Source: Zwartia hollandica (lineage in GTDB: Bacteria; Pseudomonadota; Gammaproteobacteria; Burkholderiales; Burkholderiaceae_B). From it: DNA of 64,000 bases. The notes beneath the pieces were generated by a model that ran no database searches, was not told the origin of the DNA, and saw only the letters and a list, made by a program, of their open reading frames with translations. This document shows positions 37,360 through 46,213 of this stretch, in pieces (within the stretch, counting starts at the first letter, position 1; every line of letters begins with the position of its first letter). The position numbers were made by a program, and so were the translations under genes. The stretch is from positions 62,001 through 126,000 of the forward strand of contig NZ_JAHXRI010000004.1 of the NCBI RefSeq assembly GCF_019923725.1, given 5' to 3'.

Positions 37360-37391
37360 AAAAAAGGGAGCGCAATGTGCTCCCTTTTTTT
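37360..37391. terminator. Strong bidirectional factor-independent terminator
   Basis: A run of A (37360-37365), GGGAGC (37366-37371), a 7-nt loop, GCTCCC (37379-37384) and a run of T (37385-37391) form a symmetrical terminator 16 bp after the ugpB-like stop. It separates that unit from the type IVb pilus cluster and would also work on the minus strand. The stretch 37392-37480 holds no gene that I can support. Confidence 0.88.
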
Positions 37392-37480: not shown

Positions 37481-38281
37481 ATGTGGAACATATTAGGCCG
37501 AAATCTACTTTTATTCTTATGTCTTTGCATCTATGGATGTGCACGTATCGGCATCGATCGTGTTCCAGACCCAGAGCGTAGTGCTGAACAGCCAACGGGA
37601 AAGCTCGACTTCGGATGGCGACTATCGGGCGATCGTACCGTCGCGCCATTGCAGATTTTTTCCGATTCAACACGCACTTGGTTGCAGTGGAGTCCACAGC
37701 AGACGCTTCCCGCACTAATCGGTCAGGACCAACAGGGCGAGCGCGTCTTATCCTATCGACAACAAGGACCTTATACCGTGCTCGATGGGCAATGGATGCA
37801 ACTGCAGTTTCGTGCCGGGACACGACAGGCGCGTGCTCGGCGTGTGCATGCATTGAGCTCTGCGGTCACAACACCAACCTCAAAATCAGATACTCCTCAC
37901 GCACAGACACAGGAACAGGTTCAAGGGCCCCCTGCTAACGTCAAGTCTGCTGAGAAATTGCTTGATGCGTCTGCCGCTCCCCCATCTGTCCTCTATGTTG
38001 TCACTCCAAAAGATATCCATCTGCGGCAGGCGCTTGGACGTTGGGCATCTCTCGCGGGTTGGAAGTTTCAACCGGATCACTGGGTTGTTGATGTCGATAT
38101 CCCGCTGACAGCCGGTGCGGTATTTAACGACGACTTTATTGAGTCTGTACGAGCATTGGTTGGCTCTACGGAGCTGTCTGATCGTCCTTTGCAGCCGTGC
38201 TTCTACTCGAATCAGGTGATGCGCATCGTTCCACTTTCGGAGCATTGTGACCGGACAGTTGAACAGGGAGGCTCAGCATGA
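37481..38281 (+). CDS. Pilus lipoprotein joining a VirB9/TrbG-like domain to a TcpQ-type domain
   Basis: A 266-residue protein with a lipoprotein-like signal (LFLCLCIYGC, Cys20). Residues 55-120 read like the beta domain of VirB9/TrbG/CagX: PLQIFSDSTRTWLQW, PALIGQDQQGE, LSYRQQGPYTVLDG, then a basic end. A Pro/Gln/Ser-rich linker (121-170) follows. Residues 172-253 match the TcpQ/PilL C-terminal domain (LYVVTPKDIHLRQALGRWASLAGW ... HWVVDVDIPL). TcpQ-type domains help secretin assembly in type IVb pili. ATG 37481 is chosen for the signal peptide; no good ribosome site is visible and TTG 37424 is an alternative. It couples to the secretin gene by ATGA. Confidence 0.75.
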   Translation: MWNILGRNLLLFLCLCIYGCARIGIDRVPDPERSAEQPTGKLDFGWRLSGDRTVAPLQIFSDSTRTWLQWSPQQTLPALIGQDQQGERVLSYRQQGPYTVLDGQWMQLQFRAGTRQARARRVHALSSAVTTPTSKSDTPHAQTQEQVQGPPANVKSAEKLLDASAAPPSVLYVVTPKDIHLRQALGRWASLAGWKFQPDHWVVDVDIPLTAGAVFNDDFIESVRALVGSTELSDRPLQPCFYSNQVMRIVPLSEHCDRTVEQGGSA

Positions 38282-39879
38282 AGTCAGGTCTCCGTGTTTC
38301 GGTGTGCCTAGTGCAAGTCTCGTTGCTCTGCGGTTGCGCACTGCACAAGCGGTTGCAAGACCAAGTTGATGTGGCTACGAAAGAGCAGTCCGAGATTACC
38401 CGTCAGCACCAGCAGTTTCGACGTATTGCTACCCACAAAAGTGAAAAGCATCGCTCCCAGCAAGTAAATCGTCCGTGGTTGGTGGGGCGCGCTGTCCCGC
38501 TAGCGCGGGAGTTCACCTTGCCTCCAGCATTACGTGCACGCATCGACACCACACTCATGTATCGCGATGGAAGAATCGATCTGCCCACGCTCGCTGAACG
38601 CATCACGCGCGCGACTGGAATTGCTGTCCGTATCAGACCAGAGGCCTTACTGCCCGCAGAAAACTTCTTGCCACGTTTAACAGTGACGCAAAGTAATGGT
38701 GCCGCGGCAATGCCACACACGATTACCTTATTGCAGGGGTCTTATCCATTAAGCGATGTGCTCGATACCGCCTCGCGCCGTTTGTCTGTGCATTGGCGTT
38801 ATCACGATCGCGCGATTGAGTTCTTTCGTACACAAACGAGGGTTTTTGACTTGCGCTTGCTCACGCTTTCGGCACAGGCTGATGCGCGCTTGGGCCGTAG
38901 CGTTAGCGCAAAGGGCGCAGGCTTTGATCATTCTTCCCGAACATCACTGACCACCTCCGCACAGCATGTCATGGATGCCGTGAAGAGCCGTTTAGAGCCG
39001 TTCTTGAGTCGGGCTGCCGTTGTCGCTGCCCAGCCTGGGGCATCGAGCTCGATTGTCATCACGGACCTACCCGAGGTCCTGAGTCAAATCGCAACATATT
39101 TGGATCGAGAAAATCGAATTTTGACTAAACGCGTGCGACTCGTTTTTGAAGAGATCACGATTGTGACAAATGAGGATTCCGAGCTCGGACTGGATTGGGA
39201 GACCGTATTTGCACACGGAAAATTAGCGTTGGGTCTTGCGAGTTCTGCCGGTGCGGCATCGGTAACGAGTACACAAGCCCGTCTTGCAGCGAGTACTTCA
39301 GCCGCGCGTAGCCAAGCGGTCTTGAGTGCCTTGTCCAAGTATGGAACGATTTTGCGACACGTCACAATTCCTGTGCTGACGCTCAATCGGAGACCTGTGA
39401 CACATGCAGTGCGTACGACCTTTACCTATATCGATCAAGTTAAGGCGTCTGCCCATGCAGCTTCTGGGCAGATAGCCAATCACTCCTCCAATCCCTCAGT
39501 TTCCGTTACACAAAAGGAAGAGACGGTTGGGGCTTTTTTAACGCTGCTGCCAGACGTGCAAGAGGACGACCAGATATTGTTATCGGTCGCGTACGACAAC
39601 ACGGTCGCGCAACCGTTGAAATCTATCGTAGTAGGTCAGGAAAGTAATCGCCTACAGATACAGCAAATCACGATTGATGGACATGGCACAGTGCAACAAG
39701 TTGCGCTGAAAGCAGGGCAACCCATGCTGATCTCTGGATTTGATTCTCAAAACGAAGCGACGGATCGCTCGCGCGTCGCAGCGCCAGCTCCGCTCGCATT
39801 TGGGGGCGGCGATCGCCTCAAGAAGGGACGTACCGTTACCTTGATCATGTTGACGGCCCACGTTGAGGAGGGCTTCTGA
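38278..39879 (+). CDS. pilN: Type IVb pilus secretin, PilN-like lipoprotein
   Basis: A 533-residue outer-membrane channel protein. The signal ends in a clean lipobox LCGC (Cys20). Residues about 90-200 form the N0/N1-type region (LPTLAERITRATGIAVRI, YPLSDVLDTASRRLSVHWRY). The C-terminal secretin domain contains IVITDLPEVLSQIATYLDREN, VFEEITIVTNEDSELGLDW, and a final GRTVTLIMLTAHVEEGF strand. R64 PilN and TcpC/BfpB are its relatives. It overlaps the upstream TcpQ-type gene by four bases and is followed one base later by the PilO-like gene. Confidence 0.88.
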   Translation: MKSGLRVSVCLVQVSLLCGCALHKRLQDQVDVATKEQSEITRQHQQFRRIATHKSEKHRSQQVNRPWLVGRAVPLAREFTLPPALRARIDTTLMYRDGRIDLPTLAERITRATGIAVRIRPEALLPAENFLPRLTVTQSNGAAAMPHTITLLQGSYPLSDVLDTASRRLSVHWRYHDRAIEFFRTQTRVFDLRLLTLSAQADARLGRSVSAKGAGFDHSSRTSLTTSAQHVMDAVKSRLEPFLSRAAVVAAQPGASSSIVITDLPEVLSQIATYLDRENRILTKRVRLVFEEITIVTNEDSELGLDWETVFAHGKLALGLASSAGAASVTSTQARLAASTSAARSQAVLSALSKYGTILRHVTIPVLTLNRRPVTHAVRTTFTYIDQVKASAHAASGQIANHSSNPSVSVTQKEETVGAFLTLLPDVQEDDQILLSVAYDNTVAQPLKSIVVGQESNRLQIQQITIDGHGTVQQVALKAGQPMLISGFDSQNEATDRSRVAAPAPLAFGGGDRLKKGRTVTLIMLTAHVEEGF

Positions 39880-39880
39880 G

Positions 39881-41188
39881 ATGCGTGACTTACAGCATCC
39901 ACGCACTGCGGTAGCGCAAGCGCAGTCCCAGCTTATTATGACAAGCGAAGGCTCTCGTTTTCTTTTTGGTTTGCAATGGACGCCTCTCGTGGGGGGGAGG
40001 CCGTCGCAAATAGGCAGGGAGAGGGCGCGGGTACTAAATGCCTCGCACTACCTCATTAGAGGCGAGCCTGGAGCTGTCCTCGGCTACGCAAGTATGGCCG
40101 CCGCAAAGAAGCAAATAATCTATCCCTTGTACTCCGCAGCGATGCACTACGTCTGCACACAGCCGACAGGGACGGTCGCGTGCGTATTGCCACATAGGGA
40201 ATATGGCTTCTGGGTCGTGGCGGCGCATGAGGGTACGGTGCTCGTGCAATCGGATAAATGGTTTCAGAGCTTGGAGCAAGCACAAGAGCTCATAAATGTG
40301 CTTACGGCTCGTTTTCCACAACTAACTGTTTGCTGGTTACCAACCTTTGAGCCGACGACCCCGCCGGACTGGCTGTGCGTGAGGCCCGACTCCCAAAGCC
40401 GCCTGTCCGCACTTGAACGTCCAGCACCATTCAAGCTTTCGTTTGCCCTAGGCTTGCTCACGCTGCTGATTGGATCGATTTATTACAGCACAAAGGATTC
40501 CGTGAATGACGCATTTGAGTCTGGACCGAACGCGTCTGCTCTCTGGAGTGAAGCAATGCAGCGTGTGGCATCCACCTATCCCCTTCACAGCTCAACGCAT
40601 CTAGGTCGGGTAGTCGAGTATTGGCGTCAAGCCCCTTTGCGTGTTGCAGGCTGGAAGCTTAAACGAATCCAGTGCGAGCCAAAGGCATTGGAATGGCGTT
40701 GTATGGCACGTTATCAACGTGAGCATCGTCTTGCACTCAATAAAGGTCTGGAAGCAAACACACCTATTGGTTGGTCGTTTTTGCCGTTTGACCTAGACCA
40801 TGCCTTGCTGACATGGACTGTCCAGGATGCCGCAAGCCACTTCGACTTGACTCTCGTGCATGAGCGTGAAGACTGGATGAGCTACTTACAGCAGATCACC
40901 CCAATTTTCGAGACTGTGCAAGTCGGCGTGGCAGCTAGGTTGGCGGTTGCTGCACCCCTGAGCGGGCAGGGTGCTCCTCTTGATCGACCTTCAACGATTC
41001 CTATTTGGCAGAAGCGGAGCTTTTCCCTGAAGGGGCCTCTGCGTTCAGTTGCCGCTCTGAGCGGATTACGCGTTCCGCTGCACTGGAAAAATCTTAGCCT
41101 AAGTGTTGATGCGGCGTCAGGGCATGGAATCGCACGTAGTCAGTTGGTTGTGCAGTTTGAGGGGGATCTATTTGAAACGAGTCATTAA
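39881..41188 (+). CDS. Type IVb pilus accessory protein, PilO-like
   Basis: A 435-residue protein with an N-terminal cytoplasmic domain (residues 1-180), one transmembrane helix (about 184-202, FKLSFALGLLTLLIGSIYY) and a periplasmic C-terminal domain with two Cys (IQCEPKALEWRC). This is the bitopic layout of R64 PilO/PilO2 and BfpL-type proteins, which link the secretin to the inner-membrane platform. Sequence similarity is weak, so the call leans on topology and gene order. ATG 39881 has GAGGAGG about 10 bp upstream. The last 17 bp overlap the next gene. Confidence 0.65.
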   Translation: MRDLQHPRTAVAQAQSQLIMTSEGSRFLFGLQWTPLVGGRPSQIGRERARVLNASHYLIRGEPGAVLGYASMAAAKKQIIYPLYSAAMHYVCTQPTGTVACVLPHREYGFWVVAAHEGTVLVQSDKWFQSLEQAQELINVLTARFPQLTVCWLPTFEPTTPPDWLCVRPDSQSRLSALERPAPFKLSFALGLLTLLIGSIYYSTKDSVNDAFESGPNASALWSEAMQRVASTYPLHSSTHLGRVVEYWRQAPLRVAGWKLKRIQCEPKALEWRCMARYQREHRLALNKGLEANTPIGWSFLPFDLDHALLTWTVQDAASHFDLTLVHEREDWMSYLQQITPIFETVQVGVAARLAVAAPLSGQGAPLDRPSTIPIWQKRSFSLKGPLRSVAALSGLRVPLHWKNLSLSVDAASGHGIARSQLVVQFEGDLFETSH

Positions 41189-41609
41189 ACCGAGATGGGC
41201 CTTAGCATCGATAAAAAAATACCTATGCGTTGGTGGCTTGCTAGTTGTTGTGACTACCGCTTGCGCTAGTGATCCTAACCAATTGGTGCTTGTTGATGAA
41301 TTATTGAAAATCGATACTCAGGCTGCACTTGTTGCGGCTCGACGAAGTATCGTCGGGACGCTTGAGCGTCCTGGGCCAGCGGTTGTCAATGACGGCGAGA
41401 CAATACTGCTCGCGATTTACGGTGTAGGTAGTTCGCTTACCGCCGAGTTGTTGATCGACGCCGAACCACACGTGTTCCGTGCCACACGCGCACAGCCTGT
41501 GTTGGGGCGAACACGCAGATACACGCTAGAGCGCATAGCGCCACCCTGCATACATCTTCGAAAATCTGAGGCTTCCGAAGTTTTTTGTCTTGGGACAAAG
41601 CAACCATGA
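41172..41609 (+). CDS. Type IVb pilus biogenesis protein, PilP-like
   Basis: A 145-residue exported protein. Translation most likely starts at TTG 41172 with GGGGG 6 bp upstream, giving a signal peptide (KKYLCVGGLLVVVTTACAS). A small domain with an early helical segment (LVLVDELLKIDTQAALVAARRS) and a strand-rich end (LLAIYGVGSSLTAELLID) follows. Size, export signal and place between PilO- and PilQ-like genes match R64 PilP, a periplasmic scaffold component. The frame is open further upstream inside the previous gene, without support. Its stop overlaps the ATPase start (ATGA). Confidence 0.65.
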   Translation: MKRVIKPRWALASIKKYLCVGGLLVVVTTACASDPNQLVLVDELLKIDTQAALVAARRSIVGTLERPGPAVVNDGETILLAIYGVGSSLTAELLIDAEPHVFRATRAQPVLGRTRRYTLERIAPPCIHLRKSEASEVFCLGTKQP

Positions 41610-43321
41610 TTGGAGACAACGCGGTTTGGACCCAACGTGTTTATCAGGAGTTGTCTTCACGCAGTGCCTTGCGTGCGCTCAAGCCCTCGTTTGTTAAGAC
41701 CTTGATTGACGAGTTTGATGTGGCAGCGCTTCAGAACAGAATGTATCCAGTTTGTTTTGAGGACAACAGTGTGGGGGTCTTTGTCCTGGAGGCGTACCGA
41801 AATGAAGATCAGATACAGGCACTCTTCGATTTACTTGAGGCACGTCGACGACGCCTTATACGCCCTAGCTTGTATGTATTACCGCCCGCTCTGTTTCTCG
41901 CTGTCGCTCAAGGCGATGGATTGCAGCCCAGAGTCGTCAGGGAACCAAGCAGTCGCGAGCAGCTCAGTGGTGCTCTAAGCGCTGTAATGACCGAGATAAT
42001 TGAATGGGCGGTCTCTGTCCGCGCCAGCGATATTCATCTCAACGTACAGCGCCTTTCGAGCGAGTCCAGTATCTGGTTCACCATTGCGGGACGTTATGTG
42101 TGCCCGGATCGATATGCACATATTCCGACAGCAACGATGTTGGATATGTTGTCAGTAACTTGGATGGAAGTGCAGGGTGGAAATGGCGCGGTGTTTGATC
42201 CCTCGATCGAGCAAGAGGGGCGATTTGTGCGTGTGTGTAGCGGTCAACGCCATGTCATTCGTTGGGCTTCACTTGCCACGGACGCTGGTCCATCCGTTTG
42301 TTTGCGCTTGTTGCGCCTCGACTCGGATGCATCGACTCCTGCGTTATCCGACTTGGGTTATTTACCGACTCAGGTGAGTGCTCTTGAGCAAGCGTGCGTG
42401 ACGCAGGGGGGTGCGATTATTCTCGCGGGAACAGTTGGCTCTGGAAAATCCACAACGATCGCTTCGCTGTTGCATGCGATCCCAGCATATCGCAAGGTGA
42501 TTACGCTAGAGGATCCTGTTGAATGCACGATTTCTAACGCGTTACAGAATACGGTGACTCGCAGCGTTCATGGCGACGATAGTTCTGTATTTGATCGAAA
42601 GTTGAAGGTGATCAAGCGTGCAGCAATGAACGATCTACTTATAGGTGAAATCCGTGATCAGGCGTCTGGACGAGCATTCGTCGATTTGGCCGCGACGGGT
42701 GTCAGTCTGTATACAACAGTGCATGCAGGTTCGGCTCTTTTGATACCAGAGCGGCTGTGTTCGAGCTTCATCGGTATTCCCAGAGATTTTTTATCCGCGC
42801 CAGGAGTGTTGAAACTTTTGGTGTATCAAGTTCTTCTGCGCAAGCTGTGTACGGAATGTGCGCTCGACTTTGAGCAGTTTTTGAGTGGAGGAGGTTTGGC
42901 TTGTGCGGGGCATATGCAGAGATCTAAGTCTTGGTGGATAAGATGGTCCGGCAGTGTTGAACGGCTATTCGGGATTTCTGCATCTTCGTTGCGCTTCTGC
43001 AATGCAGCGGGGTGCCGTCAATGCCAGAGTGACGTTCCGTTCATGTCCGGCACGGTCGGCCGAACGGTCGTGGCCGAGATGCTTTCAACAACACAAGATA
43101 CCAAGCTTTTTTCTTTGCTCCATCGAGGTGATCAAACGCAGATGCATCGCTGGTTTCGAACACGACCCAAAACGTTGTTGACCGATCCGGATATGCAGGG
43201 AAAGTCAGCACTTGAATGTGCTTTGTACAAAATGAGCACTGGGCAAATCGACCCTAGAGAGGTCGAAGCAAACTTTGGTGTGTTTTTGTGCCGGGTATCT
43301 AGCGAGAGTAGTCATGCGTAA
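41606..43321 (+). CDS. pilQ: Type IVb pilus assembly ATPase, PilQ-like (GspE/VirB11 superfamily)
   Basis: A 571-residue secretion ATPase that powers pilin polymerisation. All four ATPase motifs are intact: Walker A GTVGSGKST (275-283), Asp box LEDPVE (301-306), Walker B LLIGEIRD (344-351) and His box TTVHAG (370-375). A cysteine cluster (C415, C418, C465, C470, C473) probably binds zinc, as in assembly ATPases. The N-terminal 120 residues match nothing I recognise. No second, retraction-type ATPase is present. It starts within the preceding stop (ATGA), and its end overlaps the next gene by 8 bp. Confidence 0.88.
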   Translation: MIGDNAVWTQRVYQELSSRSALRALKPSFVKTLIDEFDVAALQNRMYPVCFEDNSVGVFVLEAYRNEDQIQALFDLLEARRRRLIRPSLYVLPPALFLAVAQGDGLQPRVVREPSSREQLSGALSAVMTEIIEWAVSVRASDIHLNVQRLSSESSIWFTIAGRYVCPDRYAHIPTATMLDMLSVTWMEVQGGNGAVFDPSIEQEGRFVRVCSGQRHVIRWASLATDAGPSVCLRLLRLDSDASTPALSDLGYLPTQVSALEQACVTQGGAIILAGTVGSGKSTTIASLLHAIPAYRKVITLEDPVECTISNALQNTVTRSVHGDDSSVFDRKLKVIKRAAMNDLLIGEIRDQASGRAFVDLAATGVSLYTTVHAGSALLIPERLCSSFIGIPRDFLSAPGVLKLLVYQVLLRKLCTECALDFEQFLSGGGLACAGHMQRSKSWWIRWSGSVERLFGISASSLRFCNAAGCRQCQSDVPFMSGTVGRTVVAEMLSTTQDTKLFSLLHRGDQTQMHRWFRTRPKTLLTDPDMQGKSALECALYKMSTGQIDPREVEANFGVFLCRVSSESSHA

Positions 43322-44459
43322 GTCGATTGTGCTCGCGGTGGTCCGAAGTGATTTATTGGAAGAAGTGTTTCAAGCGTCTTGGTTGAAATATCTAGCGTGG
43401 CGATTTCGCTCCCAACGCGCCGACTATTACTTGTATCTTGCAGACCTCATCGATGGAACGGGCGGTACCAAAACGTTGTTCTCAATATTTCAGGACGATG
43501 CCCAACGAATGCGCAAGCGTAACTGCCGAGGTGCGCTCAGCGAAGTTTGGCTTGAGCGATATCCCCTGGTTGGAGGAGACTTGTTTGCGACATGGTTTGG
43601 TTCGATTCCGCTGGAAGACCTTATCGCAATACAGAATGCGCAAAGCACGGGTGCCCAGGCGCTCGTGTCAACATTGCGAAAGCTTTCAGAAATGTGCAGA
43701 CTCCTTGATCGCGCCAAAACAATATTCGTACAAACCGCTTTGGTTGGCTTTGTCGCTCTGCTGGTGGCGATAGGTGCCTTGATGTCAATTCCAATTTACA
43801 CCGCAGAACATTTGGCTCGGGTTTTTTCGGCAGTGCCTGCTGAACTGTATGGTCAATGGACGAACGCTTTGCAACTTTGCGCTACGTGGTTGCGCGCATT
43901 ATGGTTGCTCGCTCTGCTGGTGTTGTTTGGCATGATCGTTGGTGTGCTTTGGTCTTTGCCTAATGGGGTGGGTGTCTGGCGTCGCAAACTCGACCATTTT
44001 GGTGTTTGGCTCTTATATCGACGGTTGCACAGCATACGGTTCTTGTCTTTGCTTAGAGTGCTTCTTGATCGGCAGGGCAGTGCGGGAACTCGTCTACGGC
44101 ATGCGTTGACATTACAGGCGAGGCATGTGAGTCCTTGGCTCGACTGGCATTTGCAGTGCATGCTCCAGGGTATTGACCAAGGTTGCTCGGTGATTGAGGC
44201 ACTGGATACTGGCCTGATAGATTCTGACATCTGGTGGTATTTCGTGGATATGGTCTACACACTTGGACTGGATACCGCACTGGAGCGCACCGGTGAACGC
44301 TTAGCCTCAAATAGCTTACGTAGCATTCACAAGCAAGCTATTTTCTTACGGTGGACTTTGTTGTTTAGCGCGTTAGCTATCGTACTTGGCGTCTTGTTTT
44401 GGCACTTCCAAGTCTTTGATGAGCTTCGGTACGCGTTGACGATTCACTACGCGCACTGA
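43314..44459 (+). CDS. Type IVb pilus inner-membrane platform protein, PilR-like (GspF family)
   Basis: A 381-residue polytopic protein with the GspF/PilC layout. Two cytoplasmic helical domains are split by transmembrane helices near FVQTALVGFVALLVAIGALMSI and LRALWLLALLVLFGMIVGVLW, with a last helix at LRWTLLFSALAIVLGVLFW. It would anchor the ATPase and hand prepilin to the growing fibre. ATG 43314 with GCGAGAG upstream overlaps the ATPase stop by 8 bp. Sequence is divergent from well-known GspF proteins, but topology and gene order are clear. Confidence 0.78.
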   Translation: MRKSIVLAVVRSDLLEEVFQASWLKYLAWRFRSQRADYYLYLADLIDGTGGTKTLFSIFQDDAQRMRKRNCRGALSEVWLERYPLVGGDLFATWFGSIPLEDLIAIQNAQSTGAQALVSTLRKLSEMCRLLDRAKTIFVQTALVGFVALLVAIGALMSIPIYTAEHLARVFSAVPAELYGQWTNALQLCATWLRALWLLALLVLFGMIVGVLWSLPNGVGVWRRKLDHFGVWLLYRRLHSIRFLSLLRVLLDRQGSAGTRLRHALTLQARHVSPWLDWHLQCMLQGIDQGCSVIEALDTGLIDSDIWWYFVDMVYTLGLDTALERTGERLASNSLRSIHKQAIFLRWTLLFSALAIVLGVLFWHFQVFDELRYALTIHYAH

Positions 44460-44489
44460 TTTTTTCGATTATTTTAATTAGGGGTGAAG

Positions 44490-45128
44490 ATGGTTCAAAT
44501 GTCGGGGGTGCCTGAGCTCAAGTTACACGACGTGCAAAAGAAGAGAGATAGACAGAGTGGGTTCTCGCTTATTGAGATTTCGATCGTGACGACAATCGTG
44601 ATGTTGATTGCAATTTTAGGTATCCCGGCGATTCAGTCTTATGTGATTGAGAGCAAGGTGCCGCGTGTGGCCGAGGAGCTGCAGCGTTTCGTGGCGCGCA
44701 TGAAGGCGACGACTCAAGGCTTTGGGATTGCACCCTATGACGGCATCAACACCGGCGTTCTGGCCAACGCCTTACGCACGTCGAGTGTGTTGCTAGTAAG
44801 TGGGGTGGGGTCAGGTGCCCGAGTCGTGCATGGTTTGGGTTCAGGGTCCTCGGGTAAGGGTGGGATCCACCTTGAGCCACATGCCTTGCCGGGAGGGCAG
44901 TCTGGGACTGCTTTCGCGCTTACTTTGCGTGATGTTAATCAAGCGGCATGCCCTGGCTTAGCGGCCATTTTGCAGCGGATTGCTGAGCATGTGACGATAG
45001 CCGGTACTAACGGTCCCGTCGCGGTGAAGAACACAATGGCTGAGCCATTCATGCCCTACAACCCGTTGCTGGCAGACGCGCAGTGCGCGGCCGGGGACAA
45101 TAATGTATTCACGTTTGTGGTGCGCTAA
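44490..45128 (+). CDS. pilS: Major type IVb prepilin, PilS-like
   Basis: A 212-residue prepilin. The 24-residue leader ends in Gly and is followed by FSLIEISIVTTIVMLIAIL, with the required Glu at +5 of the mature protein. The leader length fits class IVb pilins. Two C-terminal cysteines (AACPG and DAQCAAG) could form the usual disulfide loop. A glycine/serine-rich surface segment lies near GSGSSGKGG. AGGGGTG precedes ATG 44490; GTG 44484 is less likely. It must be cleaved by a prepilin peptidase not encoded here. Confidence 0.87.
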   Translation: MVQMSGVPELKLHDVQKKRDRQSGFSLIEISIVTTIVMLIAILGIPAIQSYVIESKVPRVAEELQRFVARMKATTQGFGIAPYDGINTGVLANALRTSSVLLVSGVGSGARVVHGLGSGSSGKGGIHLEPHALPGGQSGTAFALTLRDVNQAACPGLAAILQRIAEHVTIAGTNGPVAVKNTMAEPFMPYNPLLADAQCAAGDNNVFTFVVR

Positions 45129-46213
45129 TGAGGCAGGCTGTTCCACGACCGGAGCTATCTGCTGTATCCCGTGCACGTCAGCGCGGCTTTAGTTTGATCG
45201 AGTTAATTGTCGTTATTGCGATCACCTCCTTGATCGGTACCTGGGCTGCGTCAACCTGGATGCAGCAAGCCGAGGATGCTGCGACGCGTGCGACAGGTGT
45301 CTGGCTGCTGAGTATCAAGCAGGCACTTGACCAGATGTTGCATCGACAGTCCGACGCCTTAGTGGGACTCGCAGAGCCTGGTGCGCGTGGCTCCGTGTAT
45401 CGCGATGTGTGGCGTCCAACGCTTGATGAGTTAATTACCGCTGGACATCTTCCTCAAGGCTTTCCTTTGAAAGCGCCGCTTGCCTATTCTGTGTGGCTAC
45501 GAGTCGATCCACCTCAGGGTGATTGTTTACGGCTTGGATGCAAAATTCTTGGTTCGCTAATTGCCGTACCGGAGGCGCTGGCAGGCAGCGACGCCGAAAA
45601 AGTAACGCGAGTCGGGCTTCTTTTATCGACGATTGGTGGCGCTGCGGCTGCGGTGACGTCGTTGTCGGAGTCGAGGGTTAGGGGGGCTACCATCGATGTG
45701 CTGAACCCGCCGTATCCGGATATGGCGCGACTGCCTCGTGGGTCGCTTCTGGTTCGGAGTTTCTATGACTCCACCCAATATGCTGTGTTTTTACGTCAAG
45801 ATGATTTACGTGACGCATCGCTTAAAGGAAGTCTAAGTGTGGCCAAGGATTTGCAAATTGGTGGCGCGACCAAGGCGCAGGGACGCGTGTCGGCCGGTGA
45901 GTATTTGCAGGTCGGCGCATCGGCCGCAGCCGACGGTGTATGTGCCGAGGAGGGTCTGATTGCGCGGGGTCACGATTTTGGGTTGCTAGTCTGCCGAAAT
46001 CGGCGGTGGGAGCGAGTGGATCGTGGAGGCGGCGGCAGCTATTTGGAGTTGTCGGGTTATCCGTGCTTCGAAAATGACGATTGGATCGTGAGAAAGCGCA
46101 ACCCCAAAACCGGAGATTGCACCTGCCCGACCGGCTATGAGCCCTTTTTGATGTCTGTCTGGAAGCATCCCGTGCTTGCTCAGCATGAGTACAGCGCTTA
46201 CCTTTGCCTGTGA
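45128..46213 (+). CDS. PilV-like minor prepilin with Cys-rich C-terminal tip domain
   Basis: A 361-residue prepilin with a 20-residue leader cut before FSLIELIVVIAITSL (Glu at +5). A long middle part follows (TWMQQAEDAATRATGVWLLSIKQALDQ, then strand-rich segments LSVAKDLQIGGATKAQGRVSAG). The C-terminus, about residues 300-361, has GYPCF, GDCTCPTGYEP and YLCL. In R64 such C-termini are swapped by a shufflon and recognise recipient lipopolysaccharide. Here one fixed C-terminus is present and no inverted sfx-like repeats are seen. The ATG overlaps the PilS stop by one base (TAATG). Confidence 0.78.
   Translation: MRQAVPRPELSAVSRARQRGFSLIELIVVIAITSLIGTWAASTWMQQAEDAATRATGVWLLSIKQALDQMLHRQSDALVGLAEPGARGSVYRDVWRPTLDELITAGHLPQGFPLKAPLAYSVWLRVDPPQGDCLRLGCKILGSLIAVPEALAGSDAEKVTRVGLLLSTIGGAAAAVTSLSESRVRGATIDVLNPPYPDMARLPRGSLLVRSFYDSTQYAVFLRQDDLRDASLKGSLSVAKDLQIGGATKAQGRVSAGEYLQVGASAAADGVCAEEGLIARGHDFGLLVCRNRRWERVDRGGGGSYLELSGYPCFENDDWIVRKRNPKTGDCTCPTGYEPFLMSVWKHPVLAQHEYSAYLCL

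Follow-up and report, generated by a model that had tools for sequence, protein, structure and literature searches.

The closest described counterparts of the protein reported here are TcpQ, BfpG and the PilL protein of R64, which likewise carry a C-terminal TcpQ domain and are encoded close to a secretin of the PilN/TcpC/BfpB type; in R64 the pilL and pilN genes are separated by pilM. According to the available sections of PMC4971541, TcpQ is required for the stability and outer-membrane location of TcpC, whereas multimers of BfpB depend on BfpG. BfpB localises properly when BfpG is missing, BfpG itself depends on BfpB for its localisation, and mature BfpG is proposed to be a non-lipoprotein.

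Related parts are found in type IV secretion systems (T4SS). VirB7 of X. citri consists of a VirB9-binding tail and an N0 domain (PMC3093366, accessible portion), and in Legionella the N0-like lipoprotein DotD acts with DotH in a T4SS, as separate proteins (PMC2951367, accessible portion). T4SS-type parts in pilus pores have precedent, since Tad secretins (RcpA/CpaC) carry a domain resembling the N-terminal domain of VirB9 and the Tad lipoprotein CpaD has an OmpA-like fold (as described in the available parts of PMC10499894 and PMC13170226). A literature search judged from titles and the starts of abstracts, with most subscription papers outside its scope, gave no recognisable description, among the papers listed, of a VirB9 C-terminal domain (VirB9-CTD) combined with TcpQ.

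We analysed a stretch of 64,000 nucleotides from Zwartia hollandica (hereafter the window), in which a gene overlapping that of a PilN-type secretin encodes precisely this combination. We consider it likely that the product is the accessory lipoprotein at the PilL/TcpQ position in a chromosomally encoded type IVb pilus of the R64/TCP kind, with a VirB9-CTD sandwich placed ahead of the TcpQ domain.

Domains and fold of the encoded protein

The open reading frame begins with an ATG at 37481 and closes with a TGA ending at 38281, and its translation yields 266 residues with the following parts.

37481..38281, + strand: lipoprotein gene, 266 aa, with signal peptide, VirB9-CTD domain, linker and TcpQ domain (open reading frame, Pfam, AlphaFold2, structure matches)
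37481..37540, + strand: signal peptide and lipobox CIYGC, recognised by eye, in which Cys20 would be lipidated
37595..37852, + strand: VirB9/TrbG/CagX C-terminal-type beta-sandwich, residues ~39-124 (Pfam, AlphaFold2, profile and PDB structure matches, pN/pS)
37853..37987, + strand: linker, mostly of low confidence and fast-changing, residues ~125-169 (AlphaFold2, pN/pS)
37988..38248, + strand: TcpQ/BfpG-type N0-like domain, residues ~170-256 (Pfam, AlphaFold2, profile and PDB structure matches, pN/pS)

Congruent with the original prediction, which had placed a VirB9/TrbG-like and a TcpQ domain in this frame, both domains exceed their Pfam cut-offs and both match solved structures. CagX (VirB9/TrbG) reached 40.6 bits over residues 29-118 (gathering cut-off 34.2), and because the match is limited to profile positions 100-194 of 198, it is the C-terminal domain of VirB9 only that is present. 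The N-terminal (I-layer) domain of VirB9 is absent from the product, about 18 residues separating Cys20 from the VirB9-type domain. TcpQ scored 60 bits against a cut-off of 27 (residues 174-251). The domain limits suggested earlier, 55-120 and 172-253, pointed to the right domains but are a little too tight, and we prefer 39-124 and 170-256. Two NCBIfam models, TrbG_Ti (E 2.8e-6) and VirB9 (E 1.4e-4), scored far under their whole-protein cut-offs, as expected when just one domain is matched, and a PHROGs search of the product gave no match. The lipoprotein nature proposed at the outset is likely, given the lipobox-like CIYGC recognised by eye; the cysteine column is conserved at 90% or more in our 75-row alignment (A2), with one row, L095, in which the lipobox is not clear. 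As judged from the sequence, the product is thus a probable outer-membrane lipoprotein with VirB9-CTD and TcpQ in one chain.

The fold of both halves was then assessed with AlphaFold2, which returned a VirB9-CTD-like beta-sandwich and a TcpQ/BfpG N0-like domain. The model, computed from A2, has a mean pLDDT of 82.0 and a pTM of 0.47, with two confident domains (strands at 46-121 and an alpha/beta domain at 172-251) and a disordered linker; owing to the pTM of 0.47, the placing of the two domains relative to each other is not fixed by the model. A predicted model of the homologue L061 showed these two domains as well. Following realignment of Foldseek matches, the VirB9-type domain superposed on TrwF/VirB9-CTD (7o3j) with a Z of 13.4 and an rmsd of 1.8 A over 88 residues, on pKM101 TraO (3jqo) with a Z of 13.1 and on CagX (5h3v) with a Z of 12.7. 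The TcpQ domain matched the BfpG chain in the BfpBG structure 9u5s with a Z of 11.1 and an rmsd of 1.9 A over 84 residues, and to the N0 domain of X. citri VirB7 (3ov5) with a Z of 9.6 over 81 residues. Weaker matches comprised FecA (Z 7.0), the N0 domain of GspD (6.8) and a Dot T4SS chain (6.4), a range overlapped by the unrelated diffocin (6.8) and IsdH (6.7). That chain, 6x62_AD, and 7mud_AH (Z 4.9), which we take to be DotD and DotH, respectively, match only weakly, at scores that unrelated folds reach as well. In Foldseek's own ranking VirB9 chains came out on top; for the TcpQ domain VirB7 (2l4w) was found at E 0.021, and 9u5s was not among the best 50 matches listed.

A family profile recovered TrwF (E 7e-8), BfpG (E 6e-4) and X. 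citri VirB9 (E 0.0017) among PDB sequences, with VirB7 chains as a weak match (E 0.1-0.29); a single-sequence search reached TrwF only at E 0.14. In tblastn searches of plasmids, the first domain matched true VirB9/TrbG genes, down to E 9e-5 among the matches listed.

With VirB9, TrbG and CagX of T4SS the protein thus shares the C-terminal sandwich, whereas it is devoid of the N-terminal domain, has its own predicted lipid anchor and resides in a genome where neither VirB10 nor a second CagX was found. With X. citri VirB7 it shares an N0-like fold and, by prediction, a tail with a lipid site; VirB7, however, acts in a T4SS and binds a separate VirB9-CTD, whereas here the VirB9-CTD is part of the same chain. 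The PVNK-like VirB9-binding motif, as given in the accessible portion of PMC3093366, is absent from the window tail, CARIGIDRVPDPERSAEQPTGKLDF. We also considered a VirB7-like tail binding the protein's own VirB9 domain, which is not supported: the motif P-[DE]-[WFLM] follows the cysteine in 18 of 74 tails and is absent from the window protein, and in the model of a homologue carrying it the tail was of low confidence. The Tad system has VirB9-like and OmpA-like domains in its outer-membrane pilus complex too, but there, in the available parts of PMC10499894 and PMC13170226, the N-terminal VirB9-like domain lies inside the secretin, in contrast to the C-terminal domain in a lipoprotein found here.

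The pil operon and its conservation

The genes that follow make up a pil operon, with alaS downstream of the PilV-like gene.

38278..39879, + strand: PilN-type type IVb pilus secretin (ATG overlapping the lipoprotein stop as ATGA, AGGGAGG ahead)
39863..41188, + strand: PilO2-like protein (103.5 bits, E 5.9e-33, own profile built without the window)
41103..41609, + strand: small protein in the place of PilP (name taken from gene order only)
41585..43321, + strand: PilQ-type assembly ATPase, T2SSE (Pfam/NCBIfam; own profile without the window, E 2e-150)
43275..44459, + strand: PilR-type inner-membrane platform protein (own profile without the window, 3 seeds, E 6.2e-76)
44484..45128, + strand: PilS-type major pilin (Pfam)
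45128..46213, + strand: PilV-like minor pilin (shufflon N-terminal match of 22.5 against 27.5 bits, under the cut-off)

The secretin matched TIGR02520 at E 2.6e-52, its 178 bits being below the NCBI curated cut-off of 287.65, and our own PilN profile, built without the window, at E 1.2e-116. For the PilO2-like protein, Pfam and NCBIfam gave no match. A strong terminator-like palindrome with a T-run was seen by eye at 37360..37391 (+ strand), between an ugpB-like gene and the pil operon; the terminator scan did not list it.

The architecture is a well-conserved variant. A match was present in 39 of 61 genomes searched (own included), with 31 of 32 inside the genus and 8 outside, several of the latter covering the VirB9 half only. 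We further assembled 80 named loci, with titles mostly Alcaligenaceae or betaproteobacterial; six were left out of A2, either as cut or partial (L045, L083, L102, L105, L109) or for a wrong frame (L078). Two other alignments hold 17 of 27 sequences (A1) and 44 sequences (A5). At E <=0.001 both domains were detected in all 75 proteins scanned, 74 from the named loci plus the window's own. The expectation that the same architecture would stand beside PilN-type secretins in related bacteria was borne out, a PilN-like gene directly following in each of the 77 loci whose downstream DNA exceeds 1.5 kb (76 identified by script, and L078 from reading its output). Upstream, parC or a reductase gene was found in 62 of 65 loci with enough DNA, and alaS lies downstream in 50 of 64. 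Both domains are constrained, tail and linker hardly: across 28 genus sequences the median pN/pS is 0.35 for the VirB9 and 0.23 for the TcpQ domain, compared to 0.81 for the tail and 0.83 for the linker.

More widely, TcpQ was found in 21 of 200 genomes of the order (17 over the cut-off) and CagX in 49 (46 over the cut-off). In a search for the fusion beyond Burkholderiales, 321 genomes of the class were scanned and 28 matched at E <=1e-4; of these matches the window's alone spans both domains, and two more extend to profile positions 189 and 199. The scan undercounts long-linker fusions, G085 with both domains in one frame appearing with its VirB9 half only.

Turning to how the protein may work, the lipidated form would sit at the inner face of the outer membrane. 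There its TcpQ domain, by analogy to BfpG in the BfpBG complex, may dock on the PilN secretin and stabilise or place the pore. Nearer to the lipid anchor, the VirB9 sandwich could form a membrane collar, comparable to the VirB9-CTD ring of the T4SS O-layer, and the flexible linker would allow the two parts to take different heights. The parallel to a pilotin is weakened, since BfpG is dispensable for BfpB localisation and is a proposed non-lipoprotein.

We also weighed whether the protein ties two envelope machines together, a structural bridge between a T4SS and the type IVb pilus, as the original prediction had it. The window's genome holds a single CagX match, the lipoprotein gene itself, and a profile search of that genome gave no TrbI/VirB10 match; nor was a VirB10-like gene present in any of the 80 named loci within the flanking DNA examined. 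As no VirB9/VirB10 T4SS was found, the protein would belong to the pilus alone in its host, and a bridge there is not supported.

Plasmid-type loci and the probable origin of the VirB9 part

The bridging idea would appear to have more footing on plasmid-type loci, to judge by gene order, than in the host. These loci hold virB8-virB9-virB10, followed by a second, shortened VirB9-like gene, TcpQ and pilN, an order seen in Polaromonas, Hydrogenophaga, Cupriavidus, Robbsia and Paraburkholderia. In 15 of 45 loci, which were picked for TcpQ or CagX matches and are not a random sample, our own profiles detected VirB10, a frame with VirB9-CTD only and PilN; L155 and L169 are from one plasmid, leaving 14 distinct cases, and in L183 about 5 kb lie between the second VirB9-like gene and virB10. 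The second VirB9-like gene stands between virB10 and pilN in these loci, but with no second CagX and no TrbI found in the window's genome, and no VirB10-like gene in the flanking DNA examined of the named loci, we regard bridging as very improbable. The available text of PMC6232867 describes a Yersinia plasmid that bears both a pilus and a T4SS, and names neither VirB9 nor TcpQ.

Our profiles (VirB9-CTD, TcpQ, OmpA, PilN, PilO2 and others) were seeded with A2, with annotated plasmids and, for four pil genes, with the window; because of this seeding, matches to the seed sequences are by construction, and Pfam as well as the rerun without the window served as independent checks. With Pfam, CagX passes the cut-off in three of these loci (L149 of Polaromonas, L154 of Hydrogenophaga and L157 of Paraburkholderia), whereas the scores of 17.5 bits for L152 of Cupriavidus and 29.2 for L156 of Robbsia fall short of it. 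TcpQ is over the cut-off in four of these five loci and under it in Robbsia L156 (17.9); one TcpQ protein of L157 was detected by our own profile only.

In L152 and L157 the VirB9-like and TcpQ parts are adjacent genes, whereas in L149 and L154 they are fused. These loci look like a gene-fusion pair, with the direction of descent as we infer it, and the VirB9 part of the window protein probably derives from loci of this plasmid type. If so, a type IVb pilus would have taken up a domain of the T4SS outer-membrane core, and plasmid-type loci and chromosomes still display it both as a separate gene and in fused form. It would also represent another crossing point between T4SS core complexes and pilus secretins, which share N0 and VirB9-type parts.

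An OmpA-like domain of the peptidoglycan-binding type follows the VirB9-CTD in L149:7944-9218, L154:6929-8632 and L157:5265-6776, over the Pfam cut-off in L149 and L157 and under it in L154; in L149 and L154 it precedes the TcpQ domain. Three further loci, L285 and L287 (genus g31) and L286, have TcpQ in the first pil-operon gene, and a VirB9-type domain was not found there.

R64 PilL differs from the window protein in having a TcpQ match only, its N-terminal part lying where ours has the VirB9-CTD; with Pfam, the TcpQ proteins of R64 and of Pseudomonas FeN3W gave no CagX match. The idea that R64 PilL hides a VirB9-like N-terminus was dropped for want of this match, and by eye its N-terminal part resembles a second N0-like repeat.

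Stand-alone VirB9-domain lipoproteins

Of all these findings, the stand-alone VirB9 lipoprotein most deserves further study. Among 250 genomes sampled from the family, 211 held the VirB9-type domain and 193 held TcpQ; 181 had both, 30 the VirB9 domain only, 12 TcpQ only and 27 neither, a split that describes presence in the genome and not fusion in one frame. Among the 30 VirB9-only genomes, G033 and G294 gave weak matches that may be true VirB9, G340 was left uninspected and in G375 the gene is cut by the contig end. In G281, G249 and G282 the VirB9-type domain was not found, and G377 has a stop.

Nineteen inspected genomes encode a VirB9-domain lipoprotein devoid of a TcpQ domain, with alaS nearby and no PilN in the flanking DNA examined (L188, L189, L255, L257-L259, L262-L269, L271, L273 and L288-L290). 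In 16 of them alaS is within ~160 bases of the stand-alone gene, and in 11 the upstream neighbour fdr is present as well; in genus g33 and in G256 the alaS side alone is shared. One of the nineteen, G429, has a TcpQ match elsewhere in the genome. Four more stand-alone copies (G089, G329, G325 and G242) lack alaS in the flanking DNA examined. Stand-alone forms occur in seven of eight g33 genomes and five of seven g128 genomes (one g128 with a stop). Moreover, as genera g2, g4, g5 and g121 each hold fused and stand-alone states, at least four losses are implied, provided that fusion was the ancestral state and that the genus labels denote monophyletic groups.

We then searched 18 genomes with a VirB9-type match and without TcpQ for PilN and VirB10. 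No PilN match in any of them exceeded 40 bits, compared to 165.6 for the secretin of the window in the same search, and VirB10 was absent in 15, being present in G032, G307 and G346. Weak secretin matches appeared in 16 of the 18, which we took as other secretins.

These data bear on the strongest rival, which overlaps with the pilus reading rather than excluding it: the VirB9 part may have its own role at the outer membrane, independent of pilus and T4SS, with TcpQ as an adaptor to the secretin where a pilus exists and the VirB9 domain kept after pilus loss. The spread of stand-alone forms through g33 and g128, the nineteen loci beside alaS and the missing PilN and, mostly, VirB10 speak for it. 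So does the constraint at the protein level: pN/pS of the stand-alone gene is 0.11-0.28 in 21 pairs of g33, although with pS of 0.58-0.85 its synonymous sites are near saturation, and 0.28-0.46 in six pairs of g128. In five g33 genomes the mean pN/pS is 0.24 for the stand-alone gene, 0.30 for rimM and 0.11 for alaS, and the TAG noted in G346 precedes the likely start codon of the gene. On the other hand, VirB10 occurs in two of the seven g33 genomes with the stand-alone gene (G307 and G346), the weak secretin matches are frequent, some genomes lack the domain or have interrupted or cut copies, and certain g4 stubs resemble recent truncations. Taking both sides together, we regard this role as a real, if somewhat doubtful, possibility. 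Protein-level selection in g33, in genomes with no PilN-type secretin found, suggests a putative pilus-independent role.

The g4 stubs (G320, G423, G429, G434 and G437) differ in their tails, which terminate at alaS or shortly ahead of it, and they resemble products of recent deletion or truncation. Together with the stop in G377, they would fit stubs that are decaying remnants of pilus loss, kept only through adjacency to alaS. However, the protein-level constraint in g33 is close to that of rimM, and four copies have no alaS in the flanking DNA examined, so we find this unlikely. The stand-alone set comprises long-kept forms plus probable remnants.

Returning to the accessory lipoprotein of the pilus, its VirB9 part may perhaps not have been a pilus part originally, as a VirB9-domain lipoprotein persists without a pilus in many relatives. 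Extending this, we tentatively propose, with somewhat less than even confidence, that the C-terminal domain of VirB9 was freed from secretion systems to become a stand-alone outer-membrane lipoprotein with a conserved job of its own in Alcaligenaceae. Added TcpQ would couple it to the secretin in pilus lineages, and in pilus-free ones, where no type IVb pilus secretin was found and mostly no VirB10-type T4SS, it would be kept under selection. The stand-alone forms pose a testable question, namely what the VirB9 domain does without a secretion system and without a pilus.

A conserved tail after the cysteine was observed in stand-alone forms of g33 (L188, L255, L264, L266, L268, L263 and L267) and g128 (L257, L259 and L262), all from genomes in which no PilN-type secretin was found. 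It is mostly of the type P-[DE]-W-L-x-[RK]-[RK], with T-D-W or A-D-W in some g128 members.
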